From Magnolia sinica (Eukaryota; Streptophyta; Magnoliopsida; Magnoliales; Magnoliaceae), in NCBI RefSeq assembly GCF_029962835.1, contig NC_080579.1:84213959-84277958 (forward strand): a stretch of 64,000 bases of DNA, read 5' to 3'. Every line of letters starts with the position of its first letter. Positions within the stretch are counted from its first letter, which is position 1. This document shows, piece by piece, positions 9,960 through 64,000 of the stretch. Under the pieces are notes generated by a model. That model made no database searches. It saw only the letters and a program-made list of their open reading frames with translations, and was not told the origin of the DNA. Made by a program: the position numbers and the translations under genes.

Positions 9960-10262
9960 ACCTCGATCCGCTAAGACTCATGAGCCGGGCATGGTGGTAT
10001 GGGACATCGTGGTCGAGCTGTCGGCCTACGCTGTGGTAATGAGCCTCCCCGTAGTGACCAGTGAGCAATCCAGACTTGTGAGCCGATTATGGTGGTATAA
10101 GACACTATATTCGTGCTGTCGGCCTACTTGATTGGTGACGAGCCCTTTGTAGTGACCTCGAGCATACCTTGATACTGCATTAAGGCGACGATCCTTATTG
10201 TGGCAACTAAGGTATGATTAGGTATGCATTGATTGGTGACGAGCCCTTTGCAATGACCTAGA
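9960..10262 (+). repeat. Degenerate subrepeats within E1 LTR
   Basis: Motifs of the type 'gagccg..atggtggta..gacac/gacat', 'gagctgtcggcctac' and 'gacgagccctttgtagtgacc' recur two to three times. The related older LTR at 11580-11870 has more copies of the 'gtgacgagcc..cgtagtgacc' motif. It looks like a tandemly amplified LTR segment. Confidence 0.6.
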
Positions 10263-11115: not shown

Positions 11116-12741
11116 GTATCCTTTATATAAACCTATCTTACTACTATGTGCGGTATAGATGAAATGTCTATGTATGCTACTATGTATAGTATGTGTTTGT
11201 TAAATTGCTCAAATACGGTTTATATCTGATTTCTATTGTCATAAGCCGTTTTGGATTACTATATGTGAATGCTATCTTTGGATTGTGATTGGGGCTACGA
11301 GGTAGTCCAGGCAATCGGTAATTGTCTGTGAACGGTGGTTGAATTACTTAACCATGATAGACACGCCTAATGAATCCGAGTCGTACGCTGTTAGTCGACA
11401 GTGGTTAGGCCACGCGGAGTGCTTGCGCGCTCCATGTCGATCGGCTCGACGTATGCTCGTACCAGTCGAGCTTGTTAAGCAACCCGGTTGACCCAATGTA
11501 TGCTCACCATGTATGGACGCCACTGTTCGAACCTAAGGTACCAAACTCACTAGTGGAAACCCCGTTAATCTTGGTACCTCGATCCGCTAAGATTCATGAG
11601 CCGGACATGGTAGTATGGGACACCATAGTCGAGCTGTCGGCCTACACCGGGGTGACAAGCCCACCCGTAGTGACCAGTGAGCAATCCAAGCTCGTGAGCC
11701 GAATACGGTGGTATGAGACACTGTATTCGAGCTGTCGTTCTACGATTAGGTGACGAGCCATTCGTAGTGACCTTGAGCATACTCTGAAACTGCGCTGAGG
11801 CGATGAGCCTTTCCGTAGCAACAAGAGTATAAACCAGGCCTACGCTGACGGTGACGAGCCTCTCCGTAGCGAATTAGAAAACCATCTATCGTATGTGACT
11901 ACTAGGATTATCGACCCTAGATGGATCAATGTTTGGGTTATGATATAAAGGGAGGTGCCTTAGCTTCCCAATCCTGCTGTATGAAAAGGACTAATAAGAA
12001 CTCGGTAATCACGCTCATAACATCGCACTGCATGTGCCTTTGGCGTTGGTATTGAGCACAGAGGAAGGGGTGCATGCCGCGACCGTAAGAGGAAGATCGC
12101 AGAGGGAGTGCAGGTGAGGGCATGCATCATTAATACATATCATATTTGCATTAACCAGAGTACTTAGGGATGTTTGGTTGTATTGCTTTATCATTACTAC
12201 TTGATTGAATTGATAACATATTAACATTTGCCTTATAACTCCACTGAGTTGATCACTCACTCCCACATTCTGGGACGGTGTTGTACACACTAACCAGATT
12301 CTGTCTTAGCTGCAGGTGATGGCGATGCTTATGAAGCAGAGCTGGACTATTTCGATGACGAGGAGTTCTCCTATATGCAACTCTCTAGCGGGTCTATGTA
12401 GACCTGGAGTTGCGCTGTCGAGGCTACGGGATTTTGGACTATATGACATTACACATTACCATCTTGTATATTTTGAGAATTTACATGTAATTACTGATCT
12501 GGTAAAATGATCATACTCTGGAGACCTACGATTACTTATACGTTTTATATATCTATTACAGTCTTCCACTTGCCTAAATTAATCATTTCTAGAGTATGAT
12601 ATGTTGTTTTGGCTTAATCTCATTCATGTTTAATGTACTAATACAGACAACATTTAACCATCATTTTCTATGTTGCATAAATGATACGTTGGAACTCGGT
12701 AGTTGAGCTCTTGCTCGACCCCCGATTTTCAGGATGTTACA
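11116..12741 (+). repeat. Older, related LTR fragment flanking E1
   Basis: From about 11280 on it aligns with E1 LTR positions ~9640-11115: the same 'gtccaggcaatcggtaa' block, the same subrepeats, the same 'acttcccaatcc..gaaaaggactaataa' block, and the same end 'ctcgacccccgattttcaggatgttaca'. It is clearly diverged from both E1 LTRs. It lacks the first ~1.5 kb and begins exactly at the E1 boundary, which suggests E1 inserted into it. No primer site or coding region follows 12741, so it is a solo or truncated LTR. Confidence 0.75.
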
Positions 12742-14544: not shown

Positions 14545-14966
14545 CTCATGATGTATATGTTTTATCCACATCGTCCATCCATTTTTTCCAAAAAATTTAT
14601 GGCATCAGCTCAAAAATGAAGTAAATCCAAATCTCAAGTGGACCACACAATAGGAAAATGGTACTTAGAAAGCTCACCATTAAAACTTCATAGGGCCCAC
14701 TGTAAGGTTTATTAGCCATCCAATCCATTGATTAGGTCACACAGACCTTGATGAAACGAAAACACAAGTATCAGCTTCATCCAAAACTTTTGTGACCCAT
14801 AATAAGTTTTTGATGGTGGACATTCAATCATCACTGTTTTCTATGGTGTGGTCCAACTGAGATATGGATATACCTCATTTTTAATCTCGTGCATTAAAAT
14901 GAACTGGAAAAATGAATGGACGGCATGGATAAAAAAATATATATACACCTTGGTGGGGCCACACAG
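14545..14966. mobile_element. Fold-back MITE copy 1
   Basis: Left part 'gatgtat..gttttatccac..cgtccatccattttt', then 'aagtggaccacac', 'gggcccactgta', 'ggtcacacagacc', then the mirror half 'tggtgtggtccaactgag' and 'aatggacggcatggataaaaa'. The two halves are imperfect reverse complements of each other. It is non-coding. Confidence 0.75.
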
Positions 14967-15618: not shown

Positions 15619-16405
15619 AAATAGAGAAAAATACGATAACTTCTGGTACTCGGTTATGAAATGAACCAACTTTTCTGAAATTGTCCGAGGAATCCAAGCC
15701 AATAGTTCAGATCCAGATAAGATAAAGCTTGAAAGAGAGACTTGCTCGGATTTATAGGAAATGAATCCCGATCGAAGCTAAGAGAGTCAAGAGCCTTGGG
15801 CAAGTATAAAATACATCAAGTTGACTTGGTTAACGGGACAACAATATCTAAAGGGACCTATTAAAGGTCCTGAATCAGAAAGTCACCTAACCGATTATGA
15901 AACCGACCTATGTATGGTTGGTTGTGGTATCGGCTATCGGATAGAAGGAAAACATCGGTCCTGAACCGACTCAGTTTCGCCCAACAATAGATAAAAAAAC
16001 CTCTGTAAGCCAACCGAGATTACGAATCTATTAAGGCCGAGCCAAACAAAAGAGAGACGGTGTAATCTTAAACACCGTCCCGAGAATCTTGTAAAAGGAT
16101 TCCCGAGCCCGGAAATCTCGGGATCGGATGTATCCGTCAACAAAACAACACCTAAATCGGGTCTCCCGAAAAATTAGGAGAGAATCCCCTTACGCTGGGA
16201 CCTCCCACTCCTATAAAAAGTGGGCTTTCCAGGGTTAAATGTACACAAAAACTCTCTCCCAAACCCCCTCAATACTATAAGACCCAAATTCCTAGCCTAA
16301 CTTTGGCATCGAAGGGTCCCCTGCTCTAGCCAGGGTCTCCTTTGTCTTCTTCCTGTGCAGGTACTCGAAGGTCTCAAGAGGGTGGATCAGATTTTTACAA
16401 CAACA
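15619..16405 (+). repeat. E2 5' LTR
   Basis: Aligns with 25081-25866 throughout ('ccaagccaatagttc..gatccagataagataaag', 'catgtatggttggttgtggtatcggc'-type blocks). It ends in CAACA just before the primer site. The first ~20 bases are poorly conserved, so the start is approximate. Confidence 0.85.
16212..16218 (+). promoter_or_regulatory. TATA box in E2 5' LTR
   Basis: CTCCTATAAAAAGTGGG about 190 bases before the LTR end; the likely core promoter of the element. Confidence 0.6.
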
Positions 16406-22022: not shown

Positions 22023-22262
22023 ATGAAACTGAGCATATTCATTTATCAGTATGTTACATCGAGTTATATCTTGCTTCAGCATTACATTGTTAGACTGGAA
22101 AGGGTTAAGGGCAAAAGAAAGGTCGGCCACAACGTGCGAATTTTTTCTTCGGCTAATACTATTCTGGAGCTTGCCCGGAGCTGGTGTGAGTGCCAAAAAT
22201 GGAGCTGATGATGGTACCAAAAATGGAGCCGATGATGGTACCAAAAACTGAGCTCTGAGCTA

Positions 22263-24595
22263 TCAAGGGTCACTCGAAATGACCTCTAGAGCCTGAGCCG
22301 CTTCAGACTCGGTCCTGATACCACCCGCAGCATCATCAGGCTCAGCCGCTTCAGCCGCCGGATCCTCAGGAGGCCCTTCCTCGAATCTCGAGAGATTAAG
22401 GTCGGGAAAAAATTGTTTCACCACTTGGATACAAGCTTTGTACCCGCTCGCATATAAGCGATCTCTCTCGTCTTCAAACTCCAAAAATTCAAGGAAGTCT
22501 TTTATAGCCATCTCTCCTGGCTCTTTCTTGGCCACCTCGAGCGCTGCTTTTGTATCGGCCTTCAGCCGAGCTAGCTTCTCCTCGGAGGTGTCACGAGCCA
22601 GGCGAAGTTGCCGACTCTCATCAATGGCCTCATTCAGCAGCTAAGCCATCCGAGTACATTTAGCTCTAGCATCTTCAGTCGCCTTCTGAGCCAAGCTCAA
22701 CTTGCCAGTCAAACGGCTGACCCGAGTTGAGGTAATCTCAAGTTGAGCCTCTGCCTCTGCTGCCCGTCTCCGAGCTTCTTCGACGTCCGCCACATGTTTC
22801 TAGGCCTTCCCAGCCTCGGTCAAGTCTACGCTGGCTCTCAGCAGGCAAGGAGCGAGCTTTAAAAAAAAAGTTCGATTAAAGCCGAAAGAGATAAGGAGCT
22901 AAAGGATAAATTCGATATCCTACCTGACGCAAGAACTTCGCAGCATGGGAGAGTATCCGACTCCCGGGAGCTTCAAAGATGGAAGCGAATTCCTTTTCAC
23001 TCTCTGCAGAAACAGCCTATGGAACGATGTCTGTCACGACCCAACAGAAGGATGATTGCTCCTGTGGAGCTAACTCCTCCCTTGAACTCTCTCCTCTCTG
23101 CTCCTCTCTTCGCCTCGAGACCCGTTCCGCAACAGGTCCTAGCTCAAGAGTCGCCCGGGACTCGACCCGAACGTCCTCTGCCCTCTCTTCGGGGTCTGAA
23201 AAATCGACGACGATCGGGACGGCCGAGGTAGTGGCGACTGGGGCAGAAGGCTCCGCGATCGAGGGAGTAGTTTTCACCTTCTTTGGAGGCCGAGGCTCCG
23301 ACGGAAGGACTGACCTCAGAGGAGCCTTCAACTTCAACGATGGCATCAGTAGGGGTCGAGCTTCAACCATTTCTCTGTCAGACAAAACGCAGAGTAAGAA
23401 AAATTCGAGAAGGATATGTCTAAATAGTTCTATGATACCTGTCACAGATGAATCAAGGCTCGAAAGAAGAAGACGATCCGGTTGTAAAAGAGACTCCAAG
23501 ACTTATCTTTTAGGCTCAACGTCCACGGGTCTCTGATCCGAGCTAAGACTTTGGCTGCTAACTTCGATTTTTTCTTGGAAATATCTACAGAATATGTTCA
23601 GTCAGACTTAAAAGGATTTTATCAAGGCAAAATGAGGGAAAAGGCGTGCCGAGTCACCTGCTTTAGAGAACACCCGGGGAACGAGAGATTCGAACAGCCC
23701 AGGCTCGGCAGTCTCCCAGCGACCGCATGCCCAGAACCACCTCTCTTCCAGTGCTTGTTAGAGGTAGGAGGGTCAGTTATCAAAGAGCAACCCTTTTTCC
23801 GCCAAGCGCTCAAAAAATACTAGCCGGGCTGCAAAGTGTTCGGTCGAACTTGGTATAGATAAAGGAACTCATCCATGGTCAGTGAGGTCTGCTCTGTCTC
23901 AGCCCACAACACTGCACATCCAAACAAGTTCTTCCACCCATTTGGAACTATCTGCCCAGGAGCAATTCTGAGCCGGGAGAGAAAATTCCGAACAATGGGT
24001 TGTAAGGGCAGACGCAAGCCATATTGCATGGCAACTTGAAAAGTTACGATCATCCCAAGAGGGGGATGGTCGGGCAATTCATTCGGAAGCAGAAGTGGAA
24101 GAATTACTGAGTCAGGAACATAATACCCTACTCGGATCCTATCCAAATCCGTCTCGGTCAAAACTGAGGGAACCGGCCCCTTCTGCTCGTCTCCGACCTC
24201 CTCACTCTCGGCAGCCTCTCCTTCTTCAGCTACCGACTCCACAAATCAAGTCGATCTCCGTAGGGGAACCGACTCAGTGGTTCCCCCAAACTCGGTCATC
24301 ATCGGTCTCTTGGGAAGAGCCGACTCAGAGGTTCCTAATTCTTCTTCCTCTTCCTCTAAGTCATCCTTAGGGAAGAAATGGGTAGGCCTGCCCGGGGCAT
24401 GTCTCAAGACAGAGGGGCCCTCTTGAGCAGGGCGTTCCGTTGGAATCTCACTGAACATCCTAGTGGTGAGCTGGAAAGCCTCATTGGCGCTCATCGCCAT
24501 CTCCGCCAGTAAGGAAGGCGATTCCGAAATATTCTAAAAATGCTCCGTTTCGCCTTCGTCACAGAAACTCCCTCCCGTGGACTTGAAGGGTGCAT
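22263..24595 (-). pseudogene. E2 antisense gene: gypsy-type transposon domain protein, three exons (broken)
   Basis: Lies opposite to pol, between pol and the 3' LTR. Deduced structure: exon 1 24595-23658, intron 1 23657-23585 (73 bp, GTGACT..TGTAG), exon 2 23584-23439, intron 2 23438-23373 (66 bp, GTATCA..AG), exon 3 23372-22263. Exon 1 has 'LTETDLDRIRVGYYVP', 'MQYGLRLPLQPIV' and 'IAPGQIVPNGWKNLFGCAVL', resembling PF04195 (putative gypsy-type transposon domain, recalled). Exon 3 has 'LKLKAPLRSVLPSEPRPPKK', then charged helix-like sequence, then 'FEDERDRLYASGYKACIQVV'. Each block has a counterpart in E3. Stops and shifts (for example TAG where E3 has Trp near 24536) show decay. The start is by homology with E3 and is out of frame in this copy. 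Confidence 0.75.
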
Positions 24596-24785
24596 TGTCA
24601 CTGAACGAAAAGGGAGGAAGAAAAGACTCACCGGAAAGACGAAAAGCACAGTTGAGGAGGAAGGAAGAAAGCAAGGACGTAGAAGAATGGCAGATCACAA
24701 GCACAGTAAAGAAGGAAGAAGAGAGAACGGAAGAAAAGGAAATCAAGTGGGCAGACGAAAGTGTGAAAGTCGATCCCGCTCCTCC

Positions 24786-25080: not shown

Positions 25081-25866
25081 TGTTGGGGAAAAATATGACA
25101 AGTCCGGAGACTCGGTTATGGAATGGACCAACTCTCCTGAAACTTTCCGAGGGATCCAAGCCAATAGTTCGGATCCAGATAAGATAAAGCCTAAAGGAGA
25201 GACTTGCTCAGATTTGTAGGAAATGAATCCCGACCGAAGCTGAGAGAGTCGAGAGCCTTGGGCAAGTATAAGACACATCAAGTTGACTCGGTTAACGGGG
25301 CAGCAATGTATAAAGGGACCTATTAAAGGTCCTGAATCAGAAAGACACCTGACCGATTATGAAACCGACCTATGTATGGTTGGTTGTGGTATCGGCTATC
25401 GGATAGAAAGAAAACATCGGTCCTGAACCGATTCAGTTTCGTCCAATAGTAGGTAAAAAAATCTTTGTAAGCCAGCCGAGATTACGAATCTATTGAAGCT
25501 GAGTCAAACAAAGGAGAGACAGTGTAATCTTAAACACCGTCCCGAGAATCTTGTAAAAGGATTCCCGAGCTCGGAAATCTCGGGATCGGATGTATCCGTC
25601 AATAAAACAACACCTGAATCGGATTTCCCAGAAAATCAAGAGAGAATCCCCTTACGCTGGAATCTCCCACTCTTATAAAAATAGGGCTCTCCAGGTTAAA
25701 GGTACGCAAAAACTCTCTCCCAAACCCCCTCAATGCTATAAGACCCAGATTCCTAGCCTGACTTTGGCATCGGAGGGTCCCCTACTCTAGCCAGGGTCTC
25801 CTTTGTCTTCTTCCCATGCAGGTACTCAAAGGTCTCAAGAGGGTGGACCAGATTTTTGCATCAACA
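25081..25866 (+). repeat. E2 3' LTR (786 bp)
   Basis: Starts TGTTGGGG and ends ATCAACA (TG..CA with TGTTG/CAACA ends). It pairs with 15619-16405. It has its own TATAAAAA-type box near 25674. Confidence 0.88.
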
Positions 25867-36995: not shown

Positions 36996-37047
36996 TAGCC
37001 AATTCGTTTCCAAGTTAAACCACTTCTATTTTCTTAGATCTGAGGTG

Positions 37048-37485
37048 GGTGGCCCACTGTAATTTATGTCTTTTATCCATGCCGTTTGTCCATTTTACAA
37101 GGTCGTTTTAGTTTACAAGCCCAAAATTGAAGCATATCTGAGGCTCAAATGGACCACACCAAAGGAAACTGTGTGAATTGAACACTACCATTGAGTACTT
37201 CTTGGGGCTCACAAAAGTTTTGGATCAAGCTAATATATGTGTTTTTCCCTTCCTTCTTGTCTGTGTGACTTTATGAACAGGTTAGATGACAAATAAACAT
37301 CACTGTGGGCCCTAGGAAGGTTTCAACAGTGGACATCATTCTTCCCGCCGTTTCCTATGGTGTGGTCCACTTGAGCTTTGGATATAATTCAATTTTGGTA
37401 TTATAAACTAAAATGATCTCGAAAAACAGATGTAAGGTGTGGCTAAGACACACGCATATATGGTGGGCCCCACAGAGTTTACTCA
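37048..37485. mobile_element. Fold-back MITE copy 8
   Basis: Both arms present: 'aaatggaccacaccaaaggaaac' and 'tttcctatggtgtggtccacttgagctttggatat', with right end 'tatatggtgggccccacagagtttactc', as in the TIR subfamily with GTACTGAGT ends. Confidence 0.75.
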
Positions 37486-37499
37486 TTATGCAATCCGGG

Positions 37500-38689: not shown

Positions 38690-39125
38690 AGGGCCCACGT
38701 TGATGTTTATGTATTATCCACACCATCCATCCTTTTAGCCAACTCATTTTAGGACACGAGCCAAAAAAAGAGGTAGATCAAAAGATCAAGTGGACCACAC
38801 CACTGGAGACAATGGGAATTGAACTCCTACCATTGAAAGCTTCTTGAGGACCCTATAAGTTTTGGATGAAACTGATATTTTTATTTCCACTTTATCCGTG
38901 ACTGTGTGACCTTATTAATAGGTTGGATGACAAATAAACATCACTGTGGGCCCTAGGGAGAAAATAACTTTCAACCATTGACGTTTTAATGATCATTATT
39001 TCCTAAGGTGTGGTCCACTTGAGCTTTTGATTTTCCTCATTTTTAGGTTCATGCCTTAAAATGTATTTTTTAAAAGAATGGATGATGTGGATAACTCATA
39101 TATATCATGGTGGGGCTCACATATT
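38690..39125. mobile_element. Fold-back MITE copy 9
   Basis: Left 'cagggcccacgttgatgtttatg', core 'caagtggaccacaccactgg', middle 'aataggttggatgacaaataaacatcactgtgggccc', mirror 'aaggtgtggtccacttgagc', right 'catatatatcatggtggggctcac'. Confidence 0.75.
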
Positions 39126-39744
39126 TAAATCAGTAATAACAACTTTGTATGGACCGATTTTCAAAACGTAAATCCTGACGACTTTCAAACAAGCTGTAGT
39201 ACGTAATAATCAAGTAATTCTCTGTATTTACTAGGGAAATTAAAAATCAAACCGCCGTAAAAGAATTTACATTAGATGACAAAAATACATACATTCTTTC
39301 CTGGAGAATTTTTTTTGCTAATGCATAAGCCCAACGCTATGATTAGCTGTATTGAAATTGTCTAGTAAGCTCAGCTACTATAAATGGACGTATGCTAATA
39401 AATTAGGCTAATCTAATCAAGTGGACCACAATATAAAAAACAATGACAAGCTAGTTTAATTAGCCTAATTCTTAAATTTTCCATTTTATGGTGAAGTAAT
39501 TGCGTTCAATAGGCTAGATGCCACAGATAATTTGGTAGGCTCAACCATCTATAAGTACTTGCTTAGGTAGATTAGGTGGGGCCTACCAAACTCACGAACC
39601 TGGTAAGGCCCTTATATGGTGGCATTTGATTGGGCTAATTTTATATGTGGTTAATAAGTTGGATAGACCAAACAACTTTCGAACATATTTTGTGTGGCTT
39701 TATCTTTAACAATTGCATATGATACAATTAAATATTCTCACATT
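39126..39744. other. AT-rich intergenic flank of E3
   Basis: No gene seen. Short 'ggctaat/attagcc' inverted phrases around 39400-39470 and 39570-39650 suggest another decayed MITE. Confidence 0.35.
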
Positions 39745-39749
39745 AGGGC
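39745..39749 (+). other. E3 target-site duplication, left copy
   Basis: AGGGC here and at 49307-49311, immediately outside both LTRs; 5 bp is the size made by gypsy integrases. Confidence 0.9.
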
Positions 39750-40290
39750 TGTTGATGAAAATATCCGGTTCGTCCTCTTAGACCTTCGTATACCTGCACA
39801 GAGAGAGGACAAAGGAGACCCTGGCTTGAGCAGGGGACCCTCCGATGCCAAAGTCAGGCCTGGATTCTAGGTCTAAGTGTGTTGAGAAGTTTTTAGAGAG
39901 AATTCTTTTCGTACCTCTCAAGGTGACAGGGGTCCCTCTTTTATAGCTGCTGGGGCATTTAATCGCACGAGGATTCTCTTCCTGATATTGTGCGCGGGAT
40001 TTTCTCCTGGTATCACGGAGATAGGATCGTGCTCATCTCGAGCCTTCATCCGATCCCGTGAGCTTCGGGGTCGGAGATCGTATCCCAAGATATCCGAGAT
40101 GAGGCTTGATCTTGCGATGGTCGATCTGGTAAGGAGGTCCGCCCGACGCATGCCCGGAATGCTGATGAGTCGTCCGAACAGATTCAACCTTTGTCTCGGT
40201 TTAGCGAATCATGCCTCGGATTTGACACATCCTTTGGTGACCCGAGGCATTAAGTCCGAGTCTGCGGACTTGTATTTTTTGTCCCCAACA
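39750..40290 (-). repeat. E3 3' LTR (541 bp)
   Basis: TGTTGATG..CCCCAACA on the + strand. It is near-identical to 48766-49306. Confidence 0.95.
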
Positions 40291-40308: not shown

Positions 40309-40597
40309 GTGTGTTTCATATGACACTTAGGAGTAGCGAGTTTTGAGTCGGTTCACAACCCAGTCCAAGACAGTAGGTAGTCATTTAATGCGTTCCGTGT
40401 CGCCTTTGACGGGAGGCGGTTCGGTTCCTGACATCGCATGCGCCGTCAGCCGTCAAATCGCTCATCCCGCCAATGAGGGTTGGACACGTAGCAAGGGCAT
40501 TATTGTCATCAGTCGACGAGCGCCACGTGTCGAGTGGGGGAATCGATGCAGGCGTCGAATCATTTCTCCATTAATTACTTCCGCCGTATGGCAATCT

Positions 40598-40604
40598 TAT
40601 AAAT
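40598..40604 (+). promoter_or_regulatory. TATA box of E3 antisense gene
   Basis: TATAAAT, 179 bases before ATG 40783 and outside the LTR, followed by a long CT-rich leader. It is positionally matched by the E2 copy. Confidence 0.6.
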
Positions 40605-40782
40605 TGGTGGGGGTCTCGCATTTTGAACTTCTATTGTCATTCCTACTTTTCATTCCCTTTGGAGCCTTCTCAGTCTTTCATCTTCTTCCTTTCCTCTCTC
40701 TTAACCGTCAGCGCTTCCTTCCGCCATTTCCGTTTTCCTTTCTCCCTCCGGTGAGTTTCTCCTTCCTCTTTATTAGATAATA

Positions 40783-43053
40783 ATGGCGGATAGGGGTTCT
40801 CGAAGTCCCCAGGGGGGAGCTTCCGGAGACGAAGGCGAAGCGCAACGTTTTTGGAATGTTGCGGAATCGCCTTCCTTACTGACGGAGATAGCAGTGGATG
40901 CCAACGCTGCTTTTCTATCTGAGAGAGTCACTGAAGCTCCGGCGGAGCGCCCTGCTTCCGTTGTTCCTTCTCGTTGTGGGTCGTCTTTATTAACCCGCCC
41001 GGGAAGGCCTAACTTTTCAAGGGGCATGGAGGAAGATGAGGAGGAAGAAGATGAAATGTTGATTGCCGAGGGAACCTCTGATCCAGTTCCTGTCGATGAG
41101 TCGGCGCACACCAAGTCTGAAGGAGAATGATCGGGGGAAGATTTAAGCGGTTCGGTTCTCTCAGTTTTAACTGAGGCGGACTTAGACAGAATCCGAATCG
41201 GGTATCACATCCCCGAGTCGGTCATCACCTATCTCCCCCGTCCGAATGACTTGCCGGATCACCCTCCTGCTGGGGCTGTCGCGATTTACCAAGTGTCAAT
41301 GCAATGCGGCTTGCGTCTGCCCCTTCAGGCCATTGTCGGGGGAGTTTTGTCTCGCATTCAGATTGCCCCGGGGCAGATAGTCCCGAATGGGTGGAGGAAC
41401 TTATTCGGGTGTGCGGTGTTGTGGGCCGAGATGGAACAGCCACCGCTTACAGTCGACGAATTTCTCCACCTGTACCAAGTGCGAGTGAATCCGAACTACC
41501 CTGGCTTCTACGTCTTCGCTGCTTGGCGAGGCGGAGGCGGTTCCCTGATAACTGACCCTCCCACTTCCAACAAACATTGGAGAGAGCGTTGGTTTTGGGC
41601 ATGTGGTCGCTGGGAGACGGATGAGTCCGGGTCTTGCGAGGCTCGTGTTCCTCGGACATTCCAGAGAGCAGGTGACTTGGGTCTTCTCTCTCGCCCTTTT
41701 TCATTTTTTGTAATATTCTGAGTCTGAAGGGCTTGTGTCTGGCAGATATTCCGAAGAAGCGGTCGAAGCTCGGCTCCAGTGCCTCGGCTCGAATCAAAGA
41801 GTTGAGGACGTTGGATCCGGCAGATAGGTCTTGGAAGGTGCTTTTACAGCCGAAGCTTCATCTTGCAAGTCTAGACTCGGAAGTCACAGTAATTGAAAAT
41901 GTATCTTCCGAATCTTCTGAATTTTTCCCGACTTACTTCGTTTTTTTTTTATAGATCCGCTCAAGCCCGTCCCCAATCTCGGGATTGTTCACGAACCGCT
42001 CCCTCGTAAATGATCGAGCTCGTCCTCCCCTTAGGCGATCCACGAAGTTGAAGGCTCCTCCGCGGTCAGTTCTTCTGTCGGAGCCTCGGCCGCCGAAGAG
42101 GCAAAGGGTGGTGCGAAAGGAGAAAGAGCCAGCGAGTTCTTCTGCCCCTCCCGTCGTCGTAATTCCTGACCCGGAAGAAAGGGCGGAAGAGACGGCGGTC
42201 GCTGCCTCGGAACCTCAGGCGGCACCCGACTCGGTACACGTTGAGACGGATGTTCCGAGACAGGAGGAAGAGACCAGGGCCGCGTCTTCCAGAGGGGAAA
42301 GTGAGACGAGGACCGCATCCTCCAGAGGGGAGGAGACGAACCAGGAAGGGCCATCTGTCCTGCAGCAGGTGGTATCAGGGATGGTTCCCTGGGCCTTAGC
42401 CCATGGGGGCGAAAGAGAGTTCGTGAGGCTCTACAACGCTCCGTCATCGCAAACCGTCAGCCATGCAGCAAGGGTGTTTTTTGAACTCGCTCCCTGCTTG
42501 ATTAAGGCCAGCAAGGAGCTATCCTCGACTCATCGGCTGCAGACTCTTCTGTCGGAAGCCGAAGGGCGACGCGAGGAGGCCGAAATCTGGGTCGGCGTCC
42601 TGACAGGCGAGGCGGCCCTTGAGAAGGCTGCCGAAATGCGGGAGCAGAGGCGGCTTCCTCCAGAAGAGCCTTGGATGAAGCGAAAGCAGAGGTTGCTCGG
42701 GTACTGGCTCTTCTCTCCGAAGCTGAAGAAGAGAACCGGCGAGTTCTCGCAGTTCATGCTTCGTGCGCAGATGACTTAGCTCGGGCTAAGCTTGAGGCGG
42801 CGGAGCATATTCAGCAGGCCGACGAGAAGATTCGGCTAGGGACCAAGCCGTCCAAGCTTTCCTTGAGTCGGCGGAGTTCGAGGACGAGAGGGACCGCTTG
42901 TTCCAAAGCGGATATCTGGAATGCGTCAAGGATATAAAGAAATCTTTTCCTGACCTTGACCTTTCAGAAATCGAGGGTGGAGCAGCCTCGGAATCCGAGA
43001 ACCCGGACGCCTCTGCTGAAGACACTGCTGTTGGGGACGAGGCCGATGCATGA
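40783..43053 (+). pseudogene. E3 antisense gene: gypsy-type transposon domain protein, three exons
   Basis: Runs opposite to E3 gag-pol. Exon 1 40783-41671; intron 1 41672-41745 (74 bp, GTGACT..GGCAG), phase 1, giving an Asp codon across the junction; exon 2 41746-41888; intron 2 41889-41954 (66 bp, GTAATT..TATAG; donor 41901 also fits), phase 0; exon 3 41955-43053. Exon 1 holds 'LTEADLDRIRIGYHIPES', 'MQCGLRLPLQAIVGG' and 'IAPGQIVPNGWRNLFGCAVL' (PF04195-like, recalled). Exon 2 is short and basic. Exon 3 is Pro/Glu/Arg-rich, then predicted helical. Breaks are TGA 41128-41130 and two frameshifts in exon 3 (near 42655 and 42835). Without splicing, exons 1 and 2 both run into stops, which supports the introns. 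Function unknown; possibly accessory, like antisense ORFs reported in Grande and Retand. Confidence 0.78.
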
Positions 43054-43130
43054 GGACAGTTACCAGGGCCCTTTGATTTTTTCTTTCTATTTGCTTTGAT
43101 GTATTCACACGTTGTATTCGCATGTGTTTT

Positions 43131-43161
43131 GATAAATGAAAGAAAAATGCTTAGCTTTATT
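43131..43161. terminator. Converging poly(A)-like signals between E3 pol and antisense gene
   Basis: GATAAA (43131-43136) on + for the antisense gene and AATAAA on - (43156-43161) for gag-pol, within a 165-bp gap between the two convergent stops. Confidence 0.5.
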
Positions 43162-43218: not shown

Positions 43219-46200
43219 CTAAGGATAGTAGACCTTGAGGTGTTCAGCGTTCCAAGGGTGAGGCAATGGTTGTCCGTTTAGGTCTTCTAGCCGATACGTT
43301 CCTGGTCGGATGGTGCCCGAGACGATATAGGGTCCTTCCCAATTGGGTTCCAGCGTACCCGACCCAAATTCCTTGGTGTTGAAAAAAACTTTCCGGAGAA
43401 CCATATCTCCCATTCGAAACCTTCTAATCTTAACTCGGGTATTGTAGAACCGAGCCACTTGTCGTTGCCGCGCCTCCGTGCGCAGCCGCGCCACTTCCCT
43501 TTGTTCGTCCAGAAAGTCGAGTCCGAGTGCAAGGAGTTCTTCATTCTCTTCTGCATTGAATGAGGTGATTCGAGCCGAAGGTAATCCGATTTCAACGGGA
43601 GTGACGGCTTCCGAGCCATAAGCTAGTGAAAACGGAGTCTCTCCTGTGGCTGTTCGAGCTGTAGTTCGGTAAGCCCAAAGAATTTTCGGGAGCTCTTCGG
43701 CCCATGCTCCTTTGGCCCGGCCAAGCTTGGTCCGAAGATGTTGCTTGATAATCTTGTTAACCGCCTCAACTTGTCCGTTGGTTTGAGGATGATGAGGTGA
43801 AGAATAAACGTTTCTGATTCCGAGGTTGTCGCACATCTCGCGAAAGCTCCTATTATCAAATTGCCTTCCTTTGTCTGGGGGTACTTCGAATCGGCAGATA
43901 ATATTTTTCCATACAAACTCGGTGATCTTCTGCTCTGTTATTTTAGCTAATGGCACCGCCTCGGCACACAACGTGAAATAGTCCACTGCTACCACGGCAA
44001 ACTTGGTCTGACCTTTTCCCATAGGGAGCGGTCCTATAATGTCGACGCCCCACTGTGCGAAAGGCCAGGGACCAGTCATCGGTGTCAGTGCCTCGGGTGC
44101 TTGCCTCGGAATTGCCGCGAACCGTTGACATTTGTCGCATTTTTGAACGAGCTTGCGAGCGTCATGTTGGATAGTGGGCCAGTAGTATCCCTGTCGTAGG
44201 ACCTTGTAGGCGAGAGATCGCCCTCCAGAGTGGTTTCCGCAGATTCCTTCATGGATTTCACGTAATACATAGTTCGCCTCACTGGGTTTGAGGCATCGCA
44301 GCAACGGAGCGTAGTAGCATTTCTTATAAAGGATTCCGTTGAGTATGGTGTAACGAGAGGCTCGGATCTTAACTCGTCGAGCCTCGGCACGATCTTTAGG
44401 CAGCTCTCCCTTGTCAAGGTAGTGGCGGATTGGATCGATCCAGGATGGTCCCGAGTCGATTGTGTTGACGGCCTCGCCAATTGGTTCATTTACACTCGGC
44501 TTGTCGACGTATTCGATAGGGACGGACCTGGGTATATCATCTTCAACGGCGGAGGCGAGCTTTGCTAATAAATCGGCTTTGCTGTTTTCTGTACGAGGGA
44601 TCCAAGTGACATGACAGAGCTGAAATCCATTGACAAGTTCTTTTGCTTTCTCCATGTATGCTCTTAATTGGTCTTTCCGTATTTGGTATACACCGGTAAC
44701 TTGATTAACAACCAACTGAGAGTCGCTGAAAACGCTTAGGTGCGTAACTCCCATACTAGCGGCGAGTCGGAGGCCAAGTAACAATGCTTCGTATTCTGCC
44801 GTATTGTTCGACGCTTGGAATCCAAGTCGTAAGGCATACTGTATATAGGTATTATCGGGAGTTTCCAGCACAACCCCAGCCCCACTGGCCTTCGAGTTGG
44901 AAGAACCGTCGACATACAGTTTCCATGGAATAGGGCAAGGGGGAGCGGTTGATGTCGGAACTGCACCGTCCTTCGGCGTATCGTTTACTGAGAGTTCGGT
45001 TGGAGGCGTCCCCTCGGCGATAAAATCAGCTACGGCTTGCCCTTTGATTGCTGCCTTTAGTCTGTATTGAATATCAAACTCACTCAGCTCGATAGCCCAT
45101 TTAGTGAGTCGGCCGGAAGCCTCTGGTTTCTGCAATACTTGGCGAAGCGGAAGATCGGTCATCACGATGATGGTATGGGCATGGAAGTATGGCCTGAGTC
45201 GGCGAGAGGAAGTAATTAAAGCCAAGGCCATTTTTTCCAGGCTTGGGTATCTTGTTTCTGCTGGCAATAATACTTTGCTGACGTAGTAAACCGGCAGTTG
45301 CTTTCCTTCGGATTCTCGTATCAAAGCCGAGCTAACCGCTGCCTCGGACACCGCTAGGTAAAGGAGCAAAGACTCCCCCGATTCGGGCTTTGATAAGAGA
45401 GGTGCAGAACCGAGACATGATTTTAATTGTTGGAATGCCGCTTCACATTCTTCCGTCCAGCCCATTGTTTGCCTTCATTTCAATTGTTTGAAGAAAGGGA
45501 GACATTTATCCGTGGCTCTGGACAGGAACCGATTAAGTGCTGCGACTCGTCCGGTCAACCTTTGGATGTCCTTAATGGTTTTGGGAGATTCCATATCAAT
45601 CAAAACCTTTATCTTCTTAGGGTTTGCCTCTATTCCTCGCTGACTGACCAAGAAACCGAGGAATTTTCCGGAGCCTACTCCAAAAGCACATTTACTCAGA
45701 TTTAGCTTCATCCGGAACTTCCGTAGGATTAGAAACATTTCTTCCAAATCATTCACATGATCTGCCGCGTGTATGCTTTTGACGAGCATGTCGTCGATGT
45801 ATACTTCCATGGTTTGGCCTATAAGCCGAGCAAAGATTTTGTTAACTAACCTTTGATAAGTTGCACCGGCATTCTTCAAACCAAATGGCATCACTCGGTA
45901 ACAATAAAGGCCTTTATCGATGACAAAGGTAGTTTTTGATTTATCTGTTTGATGCATTACAATTTGATTATACCCTGAATATGCATCCATGAAGCTAAGG
46001 AGCTCATGTCCGGCGGTACTGTCTACTAGCTGGTCTATCCTCGGAAGCGGAAAACTATCCTTGGGGCAGGCTTTATTTAAGTCGGTATAGTCAATACAGA
46101 CTCGCCACTTCCCGTTGGATTTCTTTACAAGCACGACATTCGCGACCCACTCTGGATAGTGTATTTCTTCTATGAAATTAGCCTGGAGGAGTTTGTTGAC

Positions 46201-47082
46201 TTCTTTTTCAATGATGGCGTATCGTTCAGGGCCGAGCGGTCGTCGCTTCTGTCGGATCGGTCGATACGACGGATCGACGTTGAGTCGGTGAGTCACCACA
46301 GAGGGGTCGATCCCGGGCATATCTTCATGACTCCAGGTAAATACGTCGGCGTACCTACGGAGCAGGGCTATCAGCTTTTCTTTCAAAGGGGACTGCAGAG
46401 ACGAGCCAATTCGTACCGTCTTGGATCCATCTGTCTCGACCAAGGGGACCGAGACAAGATCTTCGACCGCCTGTCCTCGTTTATAATTCTCACTCCGAGG
46501 GTCCAATGATTCGATCGTTAATATGTTGGTCGGACTCTTGTCGGCGGCTCCTTTTACAGCTATCATGTAACATCGCCTCGCATCTTGCTGGTCTCCTTTG
46601 ACAATTCCGACTCCCGACTCGGTCGGGAATTTCATTGAAAGATGGTATGTGGATACCACGGCCTGGAGGAGACTCAATGAAGGTCGGCCGAGTATTGCGT
46701 TGTATACAGAGGGTTGATCGACTACCAGGAAGTCAACCATCATCGTCGTCTGATGTGGGGCACTACCAGCAGTGAGTGGTAATGAAACAGTCCCTTCGGG
46801 CAGTACTTGTCCTCTGGAAAAACCGATCAACGGGGTCCGAACTGGGCGTAACGTGGATCGTTCGATCCCCATTTTGTCGAACGCCCGAGTAAACAACACG
46901 TCTGCAGATGATCCCGTATCGACGAGTATTCGGAACACTTTTCGGTTAGCGATCGCCAGGGTGACGATCAACGCATCATCGTGGGGGTGATGGATACCTC
47001 GGGCGTCTTCCTCAGTGAACGATATGCAATATCTTTCCCTTTTTTTCTCCTTTGGTTGCCGATCTATAATCATGAGCTCGGA
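43219..47082 (-). CDS. E3 protease, RT, RNase H, archaeal RNase H and integrase (one internal stop)
   Basis: In frame with gag from 47082 down to 43219, with a single TGA (45475-45477) between RT and RNase H, where E2 has Gly. Protease: 'ILVDTGSSADVLF'. RT: 'VCIDYTDLNKACPKDSFPLP', 'EVYIDDML' (about 45790-45812). First RNase H: 'YLAVSEAAVSSALI' with its first catalytic acid lost, then 'VYYVSKVLLPAETRY'. Second, archaeal-type RNase H: 'WKLYVDGSS', 'NTAEYEALL', 'FSDSQLVVNQV'. Integrase: 'CDKCQRFA' of the zinc region, 'GVDIIGPLP', then 'FEVPPDKGRQFDN', four residues shorter than E2 just before the second Asp, and 'QTNGQVEAVNK'. Ends 'AEHLKVYYP'. No chromodomain. Confidence 0.9.
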
Positions 47083-48702
47083 CTAAGGCTGACTAAGTTT
47101 TCTTGCATGATTCCTTTGTGCATTGTTTGAGTCGCCCCCACCTTGTGGACCGCCGATAATCGTCCGGATTTCTTCCATAGGCTGACTCTTGGTCGGGCGT
47201 GCCTCAGCTGCCCCAGCTTTAACCATATGTTCTCTAAGTCGGCCGTCTTTTATGAGTCGTTCGATCTCTTCTTTTAGGTGACGGCAATCACTTGTGTTAT
47301 GCCCGTGATCACGGTGATAATGGCAGTATTTATCCTTGTCCCGCCGATTAGGATTACTCCTGAGCTTACTGGGCCAGTTAACAAAGCCTTCGTTTTTTAT
47401 TTCCATCAATACCTCTTCCCGAGTCTTGTTCAGGGGAGTATATGTGGAAAATCTTCGATCCGGCCGTTTGCCTGACCTTCGCTCATCACGCGCTTGATCA
47501 TCCTTGCGTTTCCTTCCTCCGGCCGAGTCGGCTTCCTTTTTGACCGACTCTTTGGCCAAAGTTTTAGTTTCACGCAGGATTCGCGCTTCCTCGGCATTCG
47601 CATACTTATCCGACCGTGCCATAAATTCTGCCAGAGTATCGGGCGGAGTTTTGTCTAGAGATGCCAGGAATGACTTATCTCTAACTCCTTGCATGAGCGC
47701 ATTGAGAGCCGTTTCTTCTGAATATTTTCGAACCTGAAAGGATTCGAAATTAAAACGCTTGATATAATCTTTAAGTAGCTCTCCCTGCTTTTGAACTACG
47801 TTGTTCAGATGTGCAGGGGGCTTCAATTTCTTCTTTCCGCCGATGAAGTTGGTGAGGAAGGCGTCGCTCAGCTCAGCGAATGAACTGATAGACTTTGGTT
47901 TCAACTGTTTGAACCACAATCGAGCTACATCGGTCAATGTAAGAGAAAAGGCCCGACACATTACTGCATCCGAGGCATCGTGGAGCTCCATATAGGTTCT
48001 GAAGCATTCAATATGCTCGGTCGGGTCGGTCTTCCCGGTGAAAGGAGTGATTTGAGGTAATCGAAACCTCTCGAGCAACCGGGCCTTCAGTACCGAGTCC
48101 ACAAAGGGGGACGCCTTCGCTTCGGACCCGGTTGAATATACATTCCGGCCGTGCTTCATGTCCGCCATCTCTTTCGCCATCTCTTCCCGCACTTCTCTTT
48201 TAAAATTTTGAATATCGGCTTTCCAAGGTTCACTGCTCTCTGCCGTGCCTTCCATGGATGGGCGATTGCGCCTTCTTCGCTCTATCTCGTGCCGAAGATC
48301 AGTCGGGGGTAGGGAAGCGTTGGCTGACTGCGCTGGAGATGGTTCTGATCCGCCTTGGGGTTGGCTCGGCCGAAAAGACTGCGGCGCGGAAGGTTGAGGA
48401 TCAACCGCCGTAGTTGGTACGTGCGCTGTCTCCCCTTGAGGATGCGGGAGTGGCTGCGTTTGCTGCTGATACATTCGTTCCAGCATCTGCTTCATCATAT
48501 TCATATCGGAGCGGATTTCTTGAACCTCCTTGTCCAACCGCCCATCGTCGCGACCCCGCTGATTGTTGCTTGTTCTGGTCGCCCCTCGTTGGCGGTTGTT
48601 AGGTGGGTTCTGGGCTGCGGGGACCGTGACTGGACCCGCTGGCCCTGTAATCGCATTCTCATTCAAATTTTCTTCTGGGACCGTCCTTCTAGTCATCACC
48701 AT
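47083..48702 (-). CDS. E3 gag
   Basis: 539 residues from ATG 48700-48702 ('MVMTRRTVPEENL'), about 50 bases after the primer site. The frame is open further upstream into the LTR, but E2 aligns from this Met. A Gln/Pro-rich N-terminus with 'DKEVQEIRSDMNMMKQMLE' (helical) is followed by the capsid core 'ERFRLPQITPFTGKTDPTEH' and 'WFKQLKPKSISSFAELSD', a Lys/Arg-rich linker, then the knuckle 'CHYHRDHGHNTSDC' (CX2HX4HX4C). It ends in TAG 47083-47085, after which pol continues in the same frame. E2 has GAG at that position, so the stop looks like a private mutation rather than a programmed gag-pol signal. Confidence 0.9.
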   Translation of the reverse strand: MVMTRRTVPEENLNENAITGPAGPVTVPAAQNPPNNRQRGATRTSNNQRGRDDGRLDKEVQEIRSDMNMMKQMLERMYQQQTQPLPHPQGETAHVPTTAVDPQPSAPQSFRPSQPQGGSEPSPAQSANASLPPTDLRHEIERRRRNRPSMEGTAESSEPWKADIQNFKREVREEMAKEMADMKHGRNVYSTGSEAKASPFVDSVLKARLLERFRLPQITPFTGKTDPTEHIECFRTYMELHDASDAVMCRAFSLTLTDVARLWFKQLKPKSISSFAELSDAFLTNFIGGKKKLKPPAHLNNVVQKQGELLKDYIKRFNFESFQVRKYSEETALNALMQGVRDKSFLASLDKTPPDTLAEFMARSDKYANAEEARILRETKTLAKESVKKEADSAGGRKRKDDQARDERRSGKRPDRRFSTYTPLNKTREEVLMEIKNEGFVNWPSKLRSNPNRRDKDKYCHYHRDHGHNTSDCRHLKEEIERLIKDGRLREHMVKAGAAEARPTKSQPMEEIRTIIGGPQGGGDSNNAQRNHARKLSQP

Positions 48703-48750
48703 GGAACTCAATGTAGAAATATGAGATGGCTTTTTTGTACAGTATTCCCA

Positions 48751-48762
48751 CAGACGGCGCCA
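48751..48762 (-). other. E3 primer-binding site
   Basis: On the minus strand TGGCGCCGTCTG, within TTGGCGCCGTCTGTGGG, directly after the 5' LTR. It is the same as E2. Confidence 0.8.
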
Positions 48763-48765
48763 AGC

Positions 48766-49306
48766 TGTTGATGAAAATATCCGGTTCGTCCTCTTAGACC
48801 TTCGTATACCTGCACCGAGAGAGGACAAAGGAGACCCTGGCTTGAGCAGAGGACTCTCCGATGCCAAAGTCAGGCCTGGATTCTGGGTCTAAGTGTATTG
48901 AGGAGTTTTTAGAGAGAATTCTTTTCGTACCTCTCAAGGTGATAGGGGTCCCTCTTTTATAGCTGCTGGGGCATTTAATCGCACGAGGATTCTCTTCCTG
49001 ATATTGTGCGCGGGATCTTCTCCTGGTATCACGGAGATAGGATCGTGCTCATCTCGAGCCTTCATCCGATCCCGTGAGCTTTGGGGTCGGAGATCGTATC
49101 CCAAGATATTCGGGATGAGGCTTGATCTTGCGATGGTCGATCTGGTAAGGAGGTCCGCCCGACGCATGCCCGGAATGCTGATGAGTCGTCCGAACCGACT
49201 CAACCTTTGTCTCGGTTTAGCGAATCATGCCTCGGATTTGACACATCCTTTGGTGACCCGAGGCATTAAGTCCGAGTCTGCGGACTTGTATTTTTTGTCC
49301 CCAATA
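48766..49306 (-). repeat. E3 5' LTR (541 bp)
   Basis: Pairs with 39750-40290. The terminal CAACA is CAATA here. It contains the TATA box below. Confidence 0.95.
48955..48961 (-). promoter_or_regulatory. TATA box in E3 5' LTR
   Basis: Minus-strand GCTATAAAAGAGGG about 190 bases before the LTR/primer-site junction. Confidence 0.6.
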
Positions 49307-50567: not shown

Positions 50568-50748
50568 CACACATATCCATTTATTTTGATGACTCATTTT
50601 AAGGCATACTTCGAAAAATAAAGTAAATCCAAACCTTAGGTGGACCACACCATAAGAAACGTTGGTTATTGAATACCCACCATTAAAAACATCTTGTGGG
50701 TTACTGGAATTTTTATTTGCAATTCTTCCTGTTGATGAGGTCAGAAAG
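50568..50748. mobile_element. Fold-back MITE copy 10 (left half, disrupted by minisatellite)
   Basis: 'atttattttgatgactcattttaaggcat', 'aggtggaccacaccataagaaac' and 'gttgatgaggtcagaaag' match the family up to its centre. The 21-bp minisatellite then starts in place of the mirror half. Confidence 0.65.
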
Positions 50749-51329
50749 AAATTGAGCGGGGCAAATATGAAATTGAGCGGGGTAAACTAGAAATAGAGTG
50801 AGGCAAACATGAAATTCAGCGGGGGAAATTGGACATTGAGTGGGATAAACATGAAATTGAGCGGGGCAAACTAGGAATTGAGCGGGGCAAACATGAAATT
50901 TAGTGGGGGAAACTGGAAATTGAGCGGGACCAACATGAAATTCAACAGGGCAAACTAGAAATTGAGCGGGGCAAACATGAAATTCAGCGGGAGAAATCTG
51001 AAATTGAAAGGGCCAAACTATAAATTGAATGGGCAAACTTGAAATTGAGCGAGAGAAACATGGAATTCAACGGGGCAAACTAGAAATTGAGTAAGACAAA
51101 AATGAAATTGAGCAAGGCAAATGTGAAATTGAGCGGGGGAACTAAAAATTGAGCGGGGTAAACATGAAATTGAGCGGGGCAAACTAGAAATTGAGCAGGG
51201 GAAACTAAAAATTAAGCTGGGCAAACATGAAATTTAGCGAGGCAAACAAGAAATTAAGCAGTACAGATATGAAATTGAGAAGGGCAAACATGAAATTGAG
51301 CGGGGCAAACATGAAATTCAGCGGGGGCT
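50749..51329. repeat. 21-bp minisatellite, about 28 units
   Basis: The unit is AAATTGAGCGGGGCAAACATG, often alternating with a version ending CTAG (42-bp higher order). Most units differ by 1-5 bases. Because 21 is a multiple of three, the minus strand stays open as a 7-residue repeat (PAQFHVC/PAQFLVC) in long segments. These frames are by-products of the repeat, with no start context or conserved domain. Confidence 0.93.
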
Positions 51330-53384: not shown

Positions 53385-53910
53385 TTTGCGTACTGAGTAA
53401 CTCAGTACCCTTAGTGTACTTAGTAAACTGTGTGGGGTCCACTGTTATTTATTTATTTTATCCACTCCGTTAATCCATGTTAACAGATCATTTTAGGCCT
53501 AATCCAAAAAATGAAGCAAATTAAAATCTCAATTGGACCACACCACAGGAAACAGCTTGATTGAACCTCTACCATTGAAAATATTTTGGACCAAAGAAGT
53601 TTTGGATTAAACTGATGCTTGTGGTTTCTTTTCATCCATGTCTTTGTGATCTTATGGACAGGTTGGATGACAAATAAAAATTACTTTGGACCCTAAGAAG
53701 GTTTCAACAATAGAAATCATTATTCCACACTGTTTGTTGTGTAATGCTCCACTTGAGCTTTGAATTTACTTCAATTTTGGAATCAACCCTTAAAATTAGC
53801 AGTTAAAATGGATGGACAGTGTGGATAAACCACATACATTCACAGTGGGTCCAACTGAGTTTACTCAGTACGATAAAAGCATATTAAGTAACTCAGTACG
53901 CAATCCGATT
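53385..53910. mobile_element. Fold-back MITE copy 12, complete (GTACTGAGT subfamily)
   Basis: Left end 'tttgcgtactgagtaactcagtac' and right end 'aagtaactcagtacgcaatcc' are inverted. GTACTGAGTAACTCAGTAC inside the left end is itself a near-perfect palindrome. The core 'attggaccacaccacaggaaacag' and mirror are present. Flanks share 'aatcgg/ccgatt'. Confidence 0.8.
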
Positions 53911-59470: not shown

Positions 59471-59489
59471 TACGCTCTTATAGTATTGA

Positions 59490-59935
59490 ATAAACTCTAT
59501 TGGGCCCACCGTGAATGTACATGGTTTATCCATGTCGTCCATCCATTTTTCTAGCTCATTCTAGGAGTTGAGCACAAATTTGAAACATATCCAAAGCTCA
59601 AATGGACCACACAAAACAGTAGGAATAATGATTTCCACTGTTGAAACCTTCCTAGGACCTACAGTGATGTTTATTTTTCATCTAACCTGTTGATGAGATC
59701 ACAAAGACATGGATGAAGGAAAAGAACAAATATTAGCTTGATCCAAAACTTCTTTGGCCCCAAGGATTTGTTAACGGTAGATGTTCATTTTGCATTGTTT
59801 TCTATGGTGTGGTCCACTTGAGCTTTGGATATGCTTCATTTTTAGACTAAAACCATAAAATTATCTGGTAAAATGGATGGATGGAGTGGATAAAATACAT
59901 GAATTATAATGGGCCCCACAAAGTTTACATGAATT
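59490..59935. mobile_element. Fold-back MITE copy 15
   Basis: Left 'ttgggcccaccgtgaatgtacatggtttatcca', core 'aaatggaccacac', middle 'acctgttgatgagatcacaaagacatggatgaag', mirror 'ctatggtgtggtccacttgagctttggatatg', right 'aatgggccccacaaagttta'. Confidence 0.78.
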
Positions 59936-62925: not shown

Positions 62926-63540
62926 GCACCTATCAGTTACTACGTCCGTACCACTAGCAATATGTGTCGAAAGACTTTCTTTAGTGGGTATTTTCATCAT
63001 TTTCTAAAAAAATTACCAACGACAAAAAATAGATAACACTAACGAAAGTTACCCATACCTATATTATTGAGTTAGTATTTTCTAAAATTCACTTAGTTTT
63101 ATAATGTATGAAGGAATTTTACCCAAATTTTTACAATGAAGACTTGTTTATAGAACACTTTTTCGTTTTTCTTCCTTGATTCAGGTACGCTACGCATATG
63201 GAAACATTTGGACTAACGTACACCATTGATTTTTTACAAGGCCCACCATAACTATTATATAAAATCCATTCTGATCATCAAGTGTCAAAACAAAATTTAG
63301 GCCTGGGTCCCAAGAATCAGGGAAATATGTGGTTTCAATGGACCACGCAAAGGAAATAATTTGAAGGGTGAGTGTTGCCCTGTCTACCATTTCCAATTGT
63401 GTGGTCCACCTAAACAAGGGATGAAGATTATTTGTGGGCCCTACACCTAAGATGGGTGACGTAGCTAGTTGTCGGAGTGGATTTCACATAAACATCAAGG
63501 TGGGGCCAATTGAGCTGCCGACCCATTTGCTTGCGGAAAT
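62926..63540. other. Intronic spacer, with a diverged MITE-like stretch
   Basis: About 63218-63505 has 'aaggcccaccataactat' and mirror 'aaacatcaaggtggggcc' ends with 'aatggaccacgcaaagg' and 'ttgtgtggtccacc' inside, possibly a distant relative of the fold-back family. No gene. Confidence 0.4.
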
Positions 63541-64000
63541 CGGATTGCGTACTGAGTTACTTAGTACCTTCTTATCGTACCGAGTAAACTCTGTAGGGTC
63601 CACCGTGAATGTATATGGTCTATCCACGCCGTCCATCCGTTTTTCTATCTTATTTTAGGGGTTGAGACCAAAATTTAAGCATACCCAAAGATCAAGTGGA
63701 CCATACTATAGGAAACAGTTGGAATAATGATTTCCACCATTGAAATCTTTATAGGGCCCACAGTGATGTTTATTTCTCATCAACCTGTTCATAAGATCAA
63801 AAAAACATGGATGAAGGGAAAAAACAAATACAAGCTTGCTCCAAAACTTCTATAGTCCCCGAGAAATTTTCAATGGTAGATGTTCAATTCACACCTTTTC
63901 CTGTGGTGTGGTCCACTTGAGGTTTGTATATATTTCATTTTTAGGCTTAATCCCTAAAATTATCTAGTAAAATGGATGGACGAAGTGGATAAAATACATA
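63541..64000. mobile_element. Fold-back MITE copy 19 (GTACTGAGT subfamily), cut by window end
   Basis: Left end 'ggattgcgtactgagttacttagtac', then 'taaactctgtagggtccaccgtgaatgtatatggtctatcca', core 'caagtggaccatactataggaaac' and mirror 'ctgtggtgtggtccacttgagg'. The right terminal repeat lies beyond the window. Confidence 0.8.

Follow-up and report, generated by a model that had tools for sequence, protein, structure and literature searches.

A probable spliced accessory gene antisense to gag-pol in Retand-type retrotransposons of Magnolia sinica, and the exact loss of one of its introns in one element family

Can a plant retrotransposon carry, on the strand opposite to its gag-pol, a gene interrupted by introns, and how would such introns survive retrotransposition? 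The question is raised by a 64,000-nucleotide (nt) stretch of Magnolia sinica DNA (assembly GCF_029962835.1, contig NC_080579.1, positions 84,213,959 to 84,277,958, forward strand; hereafter the window), in which two Tat/Retand-type elements, E3 and E2, each carry an antisense gene with the domain PF04195 (Transposase_28, TRP28) between pol and the 3' long terminal repeat (LTR). An initial inspection of the letters and open reading frames (ORFs), which we call the sequence-only reading, had proposed an intron-bearing gene in both elements; sequence comparison, ORFs and Pfam profiles bear this out, and the case is now stronger than first claimed. We consider it highly probable that these elements encode an accessory gene that lies antisense to gag-pol, between pol and the 3' LTR, has its own TATA/G-box promoter, and is spliced.

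E3 is a minus-strand element whose LTRs are 97.6% identical (Kimura two-parameter distance, K2P, 0.0245), and E2 is a plus-strand element whose LTRs are 90.3% identical (K2P 0.1056); E3 is therefore the younger insertion. The E3 domain order, reverse transcriptase-RNase H-RVT_3-integrase, fits Ogre/Retand as given in PMC6317226, provided that RVT_3 is the extra RNase H, the class being read from domain order.

15626..16405, plus strand: E2 5' LTR (self-BLAST)
25088..25866, plus strand: E2 3' LTR (self-BLAST)
39748..40288, minus strand: E3 3' LTR (self-BLAST)
43219..48888, minus strand: E3 gag-pol, with gag, aspartic protease, reverse transcriptase, RNase H, RVT_3 and integrase (ORFs and Pfam)
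48764..49304, minus strand: E3 5' LTR (self-BLAST)

The antisense gene runs opposite to each element, and its parts are as follows.

40480..40605, plus strand: E3 antisense promoter-like region, with CACGTG and a TATA-like box at 40598, outside the LTR (comparison with E2 and other loci)
40783..41671, plus strand: E3 exon 1, with PF04195, ATG at 40783 and one in-frame stop (Pfam, reading frames)
41296..41484, plus strand: PF04195 (TRP28) domain in E3 exon 1 (Pfam, E=6.5e-7)
41672..41745, plus strand: E3 intron 1, 74 nt, phase 1, GT..AG (frame; site kept in other loci)
41746..41888, plus strand: E3 exon 2 (frame)
41889..41954, plus strand: E3 intron 2, 66 nt, GT..AG (frame and comparison with other loci)
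41955..43053, plus strand: E3 exon 3, frameshifted, with a conserved C-terminal motif and a stop at 43051-43053; equivalent to exons 3 and 4 of other families
42485..42486, plus strand: E3 site of the lost intron 3 (comparison with E2 and other families)
43130..43140, plus strand: TGATAAATGAA, candidate poly(A) signal of the antisense gene, with a counterpart in E2 at about 22038-22048
23658..24595, minus strand: E2 exon 1, broken, start codon uncertain
23585..23657, minus strand: E2 intron 1, 73 nt
23439..23584, minus strand: E2 exon 2
23373..23438, minus strand: E2 intron 2, 66 nt (64 nt with the first AG), stop-free
22924..23372, minus strand: E2 exon 3
22857..22923, minus strand: E2 intron 3, 67 nt, phase 0
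22262..22856, minus strand: E2 exon 4, broken

Recomputing the borders in both elements gave the same junctions and intron lengths as had been reported (74 and 73 nt for intron 1, 66 and 66 nt for intron 2), and the suggested profile check placed PF04195 in E3 exon 1 over the Pfam cut-off (29.9 against 26.2 bits). Other particulars needed amendment. The E3 frame had been said to continue across both junctions, which is true locally, but exon 1 contains an in-frame stop and exon 3 has to be read in three successive frames. The description as a three-exon gene suits E3, but a third intron, and with it a fourth exon, is present in E2 and other families, and the three-exon form looks derived. E2 is damaged as well: its frame shifts twice and meets at least six in-frame stops. 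With both window copies broken, the earlier view of the gene as host-expressed is not supported. Moreover, E2 taken alone needs no splice at intron 2, because that intron is stop-free and a multiple of three. Since both copies are broken and E2 intron 2 would need no splice, the window by itself makes a suggestive, not a decisive, case for a spliced gene. Composition adds to it: introns 1 and 2 of the two elements have a T content of 0.37-0.48, and among 3795 exon windows of 66 nt none reaches either E3 intron or E2 intron 2, while 13 reach E2 intron 1. Low G+C discriminates less well: 219 of the 3795 windows have a G+C content no higher than that of E3 intron 1, and 57 no higher than that of E2 intron 1. 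The identity between E2 and E3 is 53% in intron 1 and 57% in intron 2, close to the 45% and 49% of shuffled controls; in the exon parts it is 52%-68% (controls 43%-46%).

We examined the introns across the 1.84 Gb assembly (127 contigs), and every conserved-site count below refers to this one genome. At least 40 copies of E3 exon 1 DNA occur at 97% identity or more (40 scored of 1179 first-look candidates), and at least 150 PF04195 matches exceed the cut-off (150 scored of 2201). Our sample comprised 33 copies of the E3 family, among them the one in the window, and 45 further PF04195 loci, about 31-62% identical to E3 at that domain where measured. PF04195 matched at E<=0.01 in 27 of 27 alignment rows, which adds little, 25 of them having been fetched by PF04195 itself. 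The plan common to divergent families comprises four coding exons and three short U-rich introns in phases 1/1/0.

The expected position of the intron 1 donor was set from a protein anchor, VP..F, rather than from the splice site; the anchor was present in 37 of the 45 loci (two placed by hand), and a GT stood at exactly the same distance from it in 34 of these 37. Exon 2 was sought by similarity at every position, not only after an AG, and was recognisable in 30 loci, in 24 of which an AG directly precedes the best position (15 of 21 once the nine loci that supplied scoring examples are dropped); GT and AG occur together in 22 of the 30. Either dinucleotide is expected by chance at about one site in 16. 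The conservation of splice sites in other copies that the sequence-only reading had predicted is thus found. Intron 1 lengths leave remainders of 0, 1 and 2 modulo three in 9, 11 and 10 loci, so that an unspliced reading cannot join the frames, and phase-1 splicing does. Within the E3 family all 33 copies have the intron 1 donor GT and 32 have the acceptor AG, which says little on selection in copies so recent. For intron 2, a donor GT was found in 15 of 22 loci at the preset offset and in 19 after this offset, wrong by two bases for one clade that accounted for four of the misses, was corrected post hoc. Intron 3 occupies the same protein position in E2 and in families of both main clades (donor GT 14/16, acceptor AG 13/15, anchors by eye); several anchors for the splice-site counts were placed by eye. 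The introns have the properties of spliceosomal introns, namely GT..AG ends, a U-rich body, and conserved position and phase. Database entries from Abeliophyllum and Ficus, known here as proteins, continue through the exon 1-exon 2 junction as a single protein. In one PF04195 copy, L044, a different sequence interrupts intron 1 soon after the donor, unlike in its near-twin L043.

In the account that we propose, the antisense gene would be transcribed from its own promoter, its introns would be removed, and its protein would serve the element. The introns would survive retrotransposition because the packaged full-length genomic RNA is the opposite strand, on which the splice sites would be invisible to splicing. 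The sequence-only reading had given this explanation, and the genome fits it: a 30-base pattern for the E3-type exon 1/intron 1 border, allowing up to 3 mismatches, occurs 436 times in the unspliced form and 0 times in the spliced form.

The region upstream of the gene resembles a promoter. The block is 64% identical between E3 and E2 (shuffles 44%), and in both elements a TATA-like box precedes the ATG, as had been noted, although the distances are 185 bp in E3 and 197 bp in E2 rather than 179-190 bp. In E3 the box lies 310 bp from the LTR boundary, on the internal side. Elsewhere in the genome, a TATA-like box falls within the preset upstream window in 17 of 26 other loci (2.1 expected) and CACGTG, a G-box, in 15 of 26 (2.2 expected). 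Of 20 loci tested, an E3-family copy included, 14 had a pol match, and in each of these pol lay on the opposite strand, downstream of the antisense gene; the other six showed none within the stretch fetched. As a separate observation, a donor-like string, CCGGTGAGT, stands just ahead of the antisense start codon in E3 (40749-40757) and in E2 (near 24633), with no plausible acceptor near it. In 32 of 33 E3-family copies GGTGAGT has an almost fixed position, 904-918 bases ahead of the intron 1 donor region (864 in one copy), and GGTRAGT occurs upstream of PF04195 in 5 of 26 other loci; these strings are unexplained.

Comparison of E2 with E3 revealed codon-level constraint on part of the gene. 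In the PF04195 part, differences at codon positions 1, 2 and 3 number 40, 30 and 100 over 177 codons (chi-square p about 1e-11), and the ratio of nonsynonymous to synonymous divergence (dN/dS) is 0.10, with dS at 2.19, near saturation; two pol pieces gave 0.10 (732 codons) and 0.09 (510 codons). Like pol, then, the PF04195 region has evolved under purifying selection. For the initial portion of exon 3, dN/dS was 0.39 and the position bias had p 0.017. The expectation that the exon blocks evolve non-neutrally thus holds for the PF04195 part and does not extend evenly to the rest, as the values for exon 2 and the exon 1 N-terminus given below indicate. Family-wide, exon 1 encodes an acidic N-terminus and PF04195, exon 2 is short and conserved, exon 3 is variable, and exon 4 is charged; a C-terminal motif ends the last exon and is present in 15 non-E3-family loci.

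Several observations weigh against a spliced, protein-coding antisense gene. Besides the broken state of both window copies and the open E2 intron 2, the loci are related, which makes their counts non-independent, and a single genome supplied them all; the depth of the locus tree nevertheless makes inheritance of the splice sites without constraint unlikely. Exon 2 has a dN/dS of 0.33 with no significant codon-position bias (p 0.25), and the exon 1 N-terminus has no codon-position signal (dN/dS 0.77). One could hold that there are no introns, only separate or frameshifted antisense ORFs with GT..AG pairs by chance. The damage to both window copies and the read-through of intron 2 in E2 would suit this, and a published survey treats the blocks as ORFs (PMC11963269). 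However, donors and acceptors are fixed in position in divergent loci whose intron lengths take all remainders modulo three, the introns are T-rich, and intron 3 is exactly absent from E3, all of which leaves this explanation scarcely credible.

Two further alternatives accept a transcript or a gene but assign it differently. Antisense RNAs have been discussed as regulators of retrotransposons (PMC7264820, PMC12786077), and the transcript could act as RNA, whether as double-stranded RNA, a source of small interfering RNA or an antisense regulator, with the protein irrelevant; we think this improbable, as both the codon-level constraint on the PF04195 region and the conserved, frame-joining splice phases point to a protein. 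Recent capture of a host gene by one element family seems more improbable still: the introns and the promoter-like region do resemble those of a gene, but the PF04195 matches number at least 150 among those scored, pol lies antisense in 14 of 14 testable loci, and the domain is a usual feature of Retand elements across the flowering plants (PMC11963269), although no search was aimed at a single-copy host orthologue outside elements. An element-encoded, spliced antisense gene remains our preferred reading.

The E3 family has lost intron 3. The site is continuous in all 33 E3-family copies, the window's included, and a 30-base pattern for the intronless E3-type site occurs 268 times in the genome. 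The loss is exact, because the coding sequence on either side aligns codon for codon: the E3 family has V-L/F-F-E followed by L-A-P, where other families have, for instance, L-L-E followed by F-A-P or F-T-P. In a tree of 48 rows, the four E3-family rows group together (support 99/98) and then with E2 (100/99), and intron 3 occurs in rows of both main clades. With midpoint rooting, its presence needs one change among the 20 labelled rows, and one loss on the E3 branch is the simplest reading of the tree. That the one intron missing is the 3'-most of the three is in keeping with reverse transcription of a spliced antisense mRNA. We sketch a history to which we give an even chance: a spliced antisense mRNA would have been reverse transcribed, probably within particles of the element itself, and its cDNA would have recombined with an element of the E3 lineage, removing exactly one intron, whereupon the intron-poor version would have given rise to a family in which at least 268 sites are recognisable.

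Some results count against this history. The assembly yielded no spliced copy of junction 1, and the cDNA route left no other visible trace there; 28 of the 48 tree rows carry no intron-3 label, and four loci (L049, L057, L062 and L043) were labelled as intron-3-bearing despite unclear or altered donors or acceptors. The E2-type exon-intron 3 pattern occurs 9 times in the genome, eight of them at the 3-mismatch limit, and its intronless counterpart 0 times, a weak null in that other E2-type copies already diverge from the pattern. Alternatively, E3 could have lost intron 3 through an ordinary genomic deletion that was exact by chance and involved no spliced RNA. The missing first-junction copy speaks for such a deletion, and a single event yields no statistics. 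Yet the exon ends match codon for codon, the lost intron is the 3'-most of three, the 3' bias is what the reverse transcription model predicts (PMC3652778), and precise losses have been described as a major type in plants (PMC4443532), so that we regard a chance deletion as rather unlikely, while preferring loss through cDNA.

Antisense genes of retroelements have been described before, and the present gene resembles them in several respects. Antisense ORFs with Transposase_28 occur in 97% of Retand clusters (Vicient 2025, PMC11963269), PF04195 having been recorded in 23% of Retand elements in an earlier survey (PMC6317226), and they are like the gene of E3 and E2 in position (from pol to the 3' LTR), orientation and domain. 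They differ in having been analysed as ORFs, whereas here they form one unit of four exons (three in E3); some of the separate antisense ORFs in PMC11963269, such as the TRP28 and Smc-like ORFs, may belong together as exons of a single gene. In maize, Grande gene23, likened here by description only, is likewise an antisense accessory gene in the 3' internal region, with an upstream promoter and a nuclear protein (PMC7264820, citing Gomez-Orte 2013). The sequence-only reading had treated an intron-containing antisense gene with its own promoter as not known to be described; the promoter was already described for Grande, and it is for the introns that we found no description. Neither PMC11963269 nor PMC7264820 uses the word "intron" in its main text, and none of the matches listed in our literature search describes introns in the Retand antisense gene in its title or the start of its abstract, although the original Grande paper or a 2011 survey of extra ORFs could mention them. 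The Ogre intron (PMC6317226) also occurs in a Tat-clade plant element, but those of E3 and E2 differ from it in lying on the antisense strand. On the published accounts cited here, then, antisense TRP28 ORFs in Retand and an own-promoter antisense gene in Grande are known, and introns in the Retand antisense gene are apparently new.

Outside plants, the closest parallels are HTLV-1 hbz and the aph genes of HTLV-2/3/4 (HTLV, human T-cell leukaemia virus), which are also antisense retroelement genes with spliced mRNA (PMC10186651); in our case the splicing is deduced from comparison of DNA. The HTLV antisense promoter lies in the 3' LTR, whereas the TATA-like box of E3, a candidate promoter element, is outside the LTR. 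The HTLV antisense proteins are found wholly or in part in the nucleus, and several of them hold the provirus in check (PMC10186651). Pfam found no basic leucine zipper (bZIP) match in two E3 pieces and six further E3 and E2 pieces, the latter six giving only weak matches below the cut-off. Our best guess, and the weakest part of our account, is that the protein works in the nucleus, binding DNA and regulating the transcription or replication of its own element, as suggested by the published DNA-binding prediction for TRP28 (PMC11963269) and by the nuclear localisation of Grande gene23 (PMC7264820). Our structure prediction adds nothing to this, having reached a mean predicted local distance difference test score of 56 and no significant structure match.

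The remainder of the window holds other repeats. An element at its left edge has LTR-like blocks at 1-845 and 10271-11113 that are 95% alike, and ahead of gag an extra sense ORF (1419-2750, plus strand) that matches PF20167, Transposase_32 (E=1.5e-14), a "putative plant transposon protein". Blocks 9688-11113 and 11305-12739 are related at 75% identity, and the second, adjoining the 3' LTR of the left element, is perhaps an older element end. A tandem array at 50748-51326 consists of 27.7 copies of a 21-base unit with 72% matches. An interspersed repeat of about 400 bases with inverted ends, perhaps similar to miniature inverted-repeat transposable elements, occurs in both orientations (14547-14934, 37045-37488, 38691-39135, 53423-53889, 59476-59928, 63535-64000 and others).

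Until now the antisense ORFs of Retand elements have been catalogued as ORFs with neither origin nor function known. If they make up a single intron-containing gene, the full protein becomes available for study, and the introns, having come along, argue against an origin by capture of a processed mRNA; DNA alone would then give evidence of antisense splicing over evolutionary time. The clean intron loss of the E3 family suggests that the antisense transcript really is produced, undergoes splicing and is at times copied back into DNA, and, if it came about through cDNA, would be a natural case of an antisense mRNA feeding back into a retroelement. Should this be true, antisense introns in retroelements would keep a natural record of antisense expression and of template switches from antisense mRNA to genomic RNA or the reverse.
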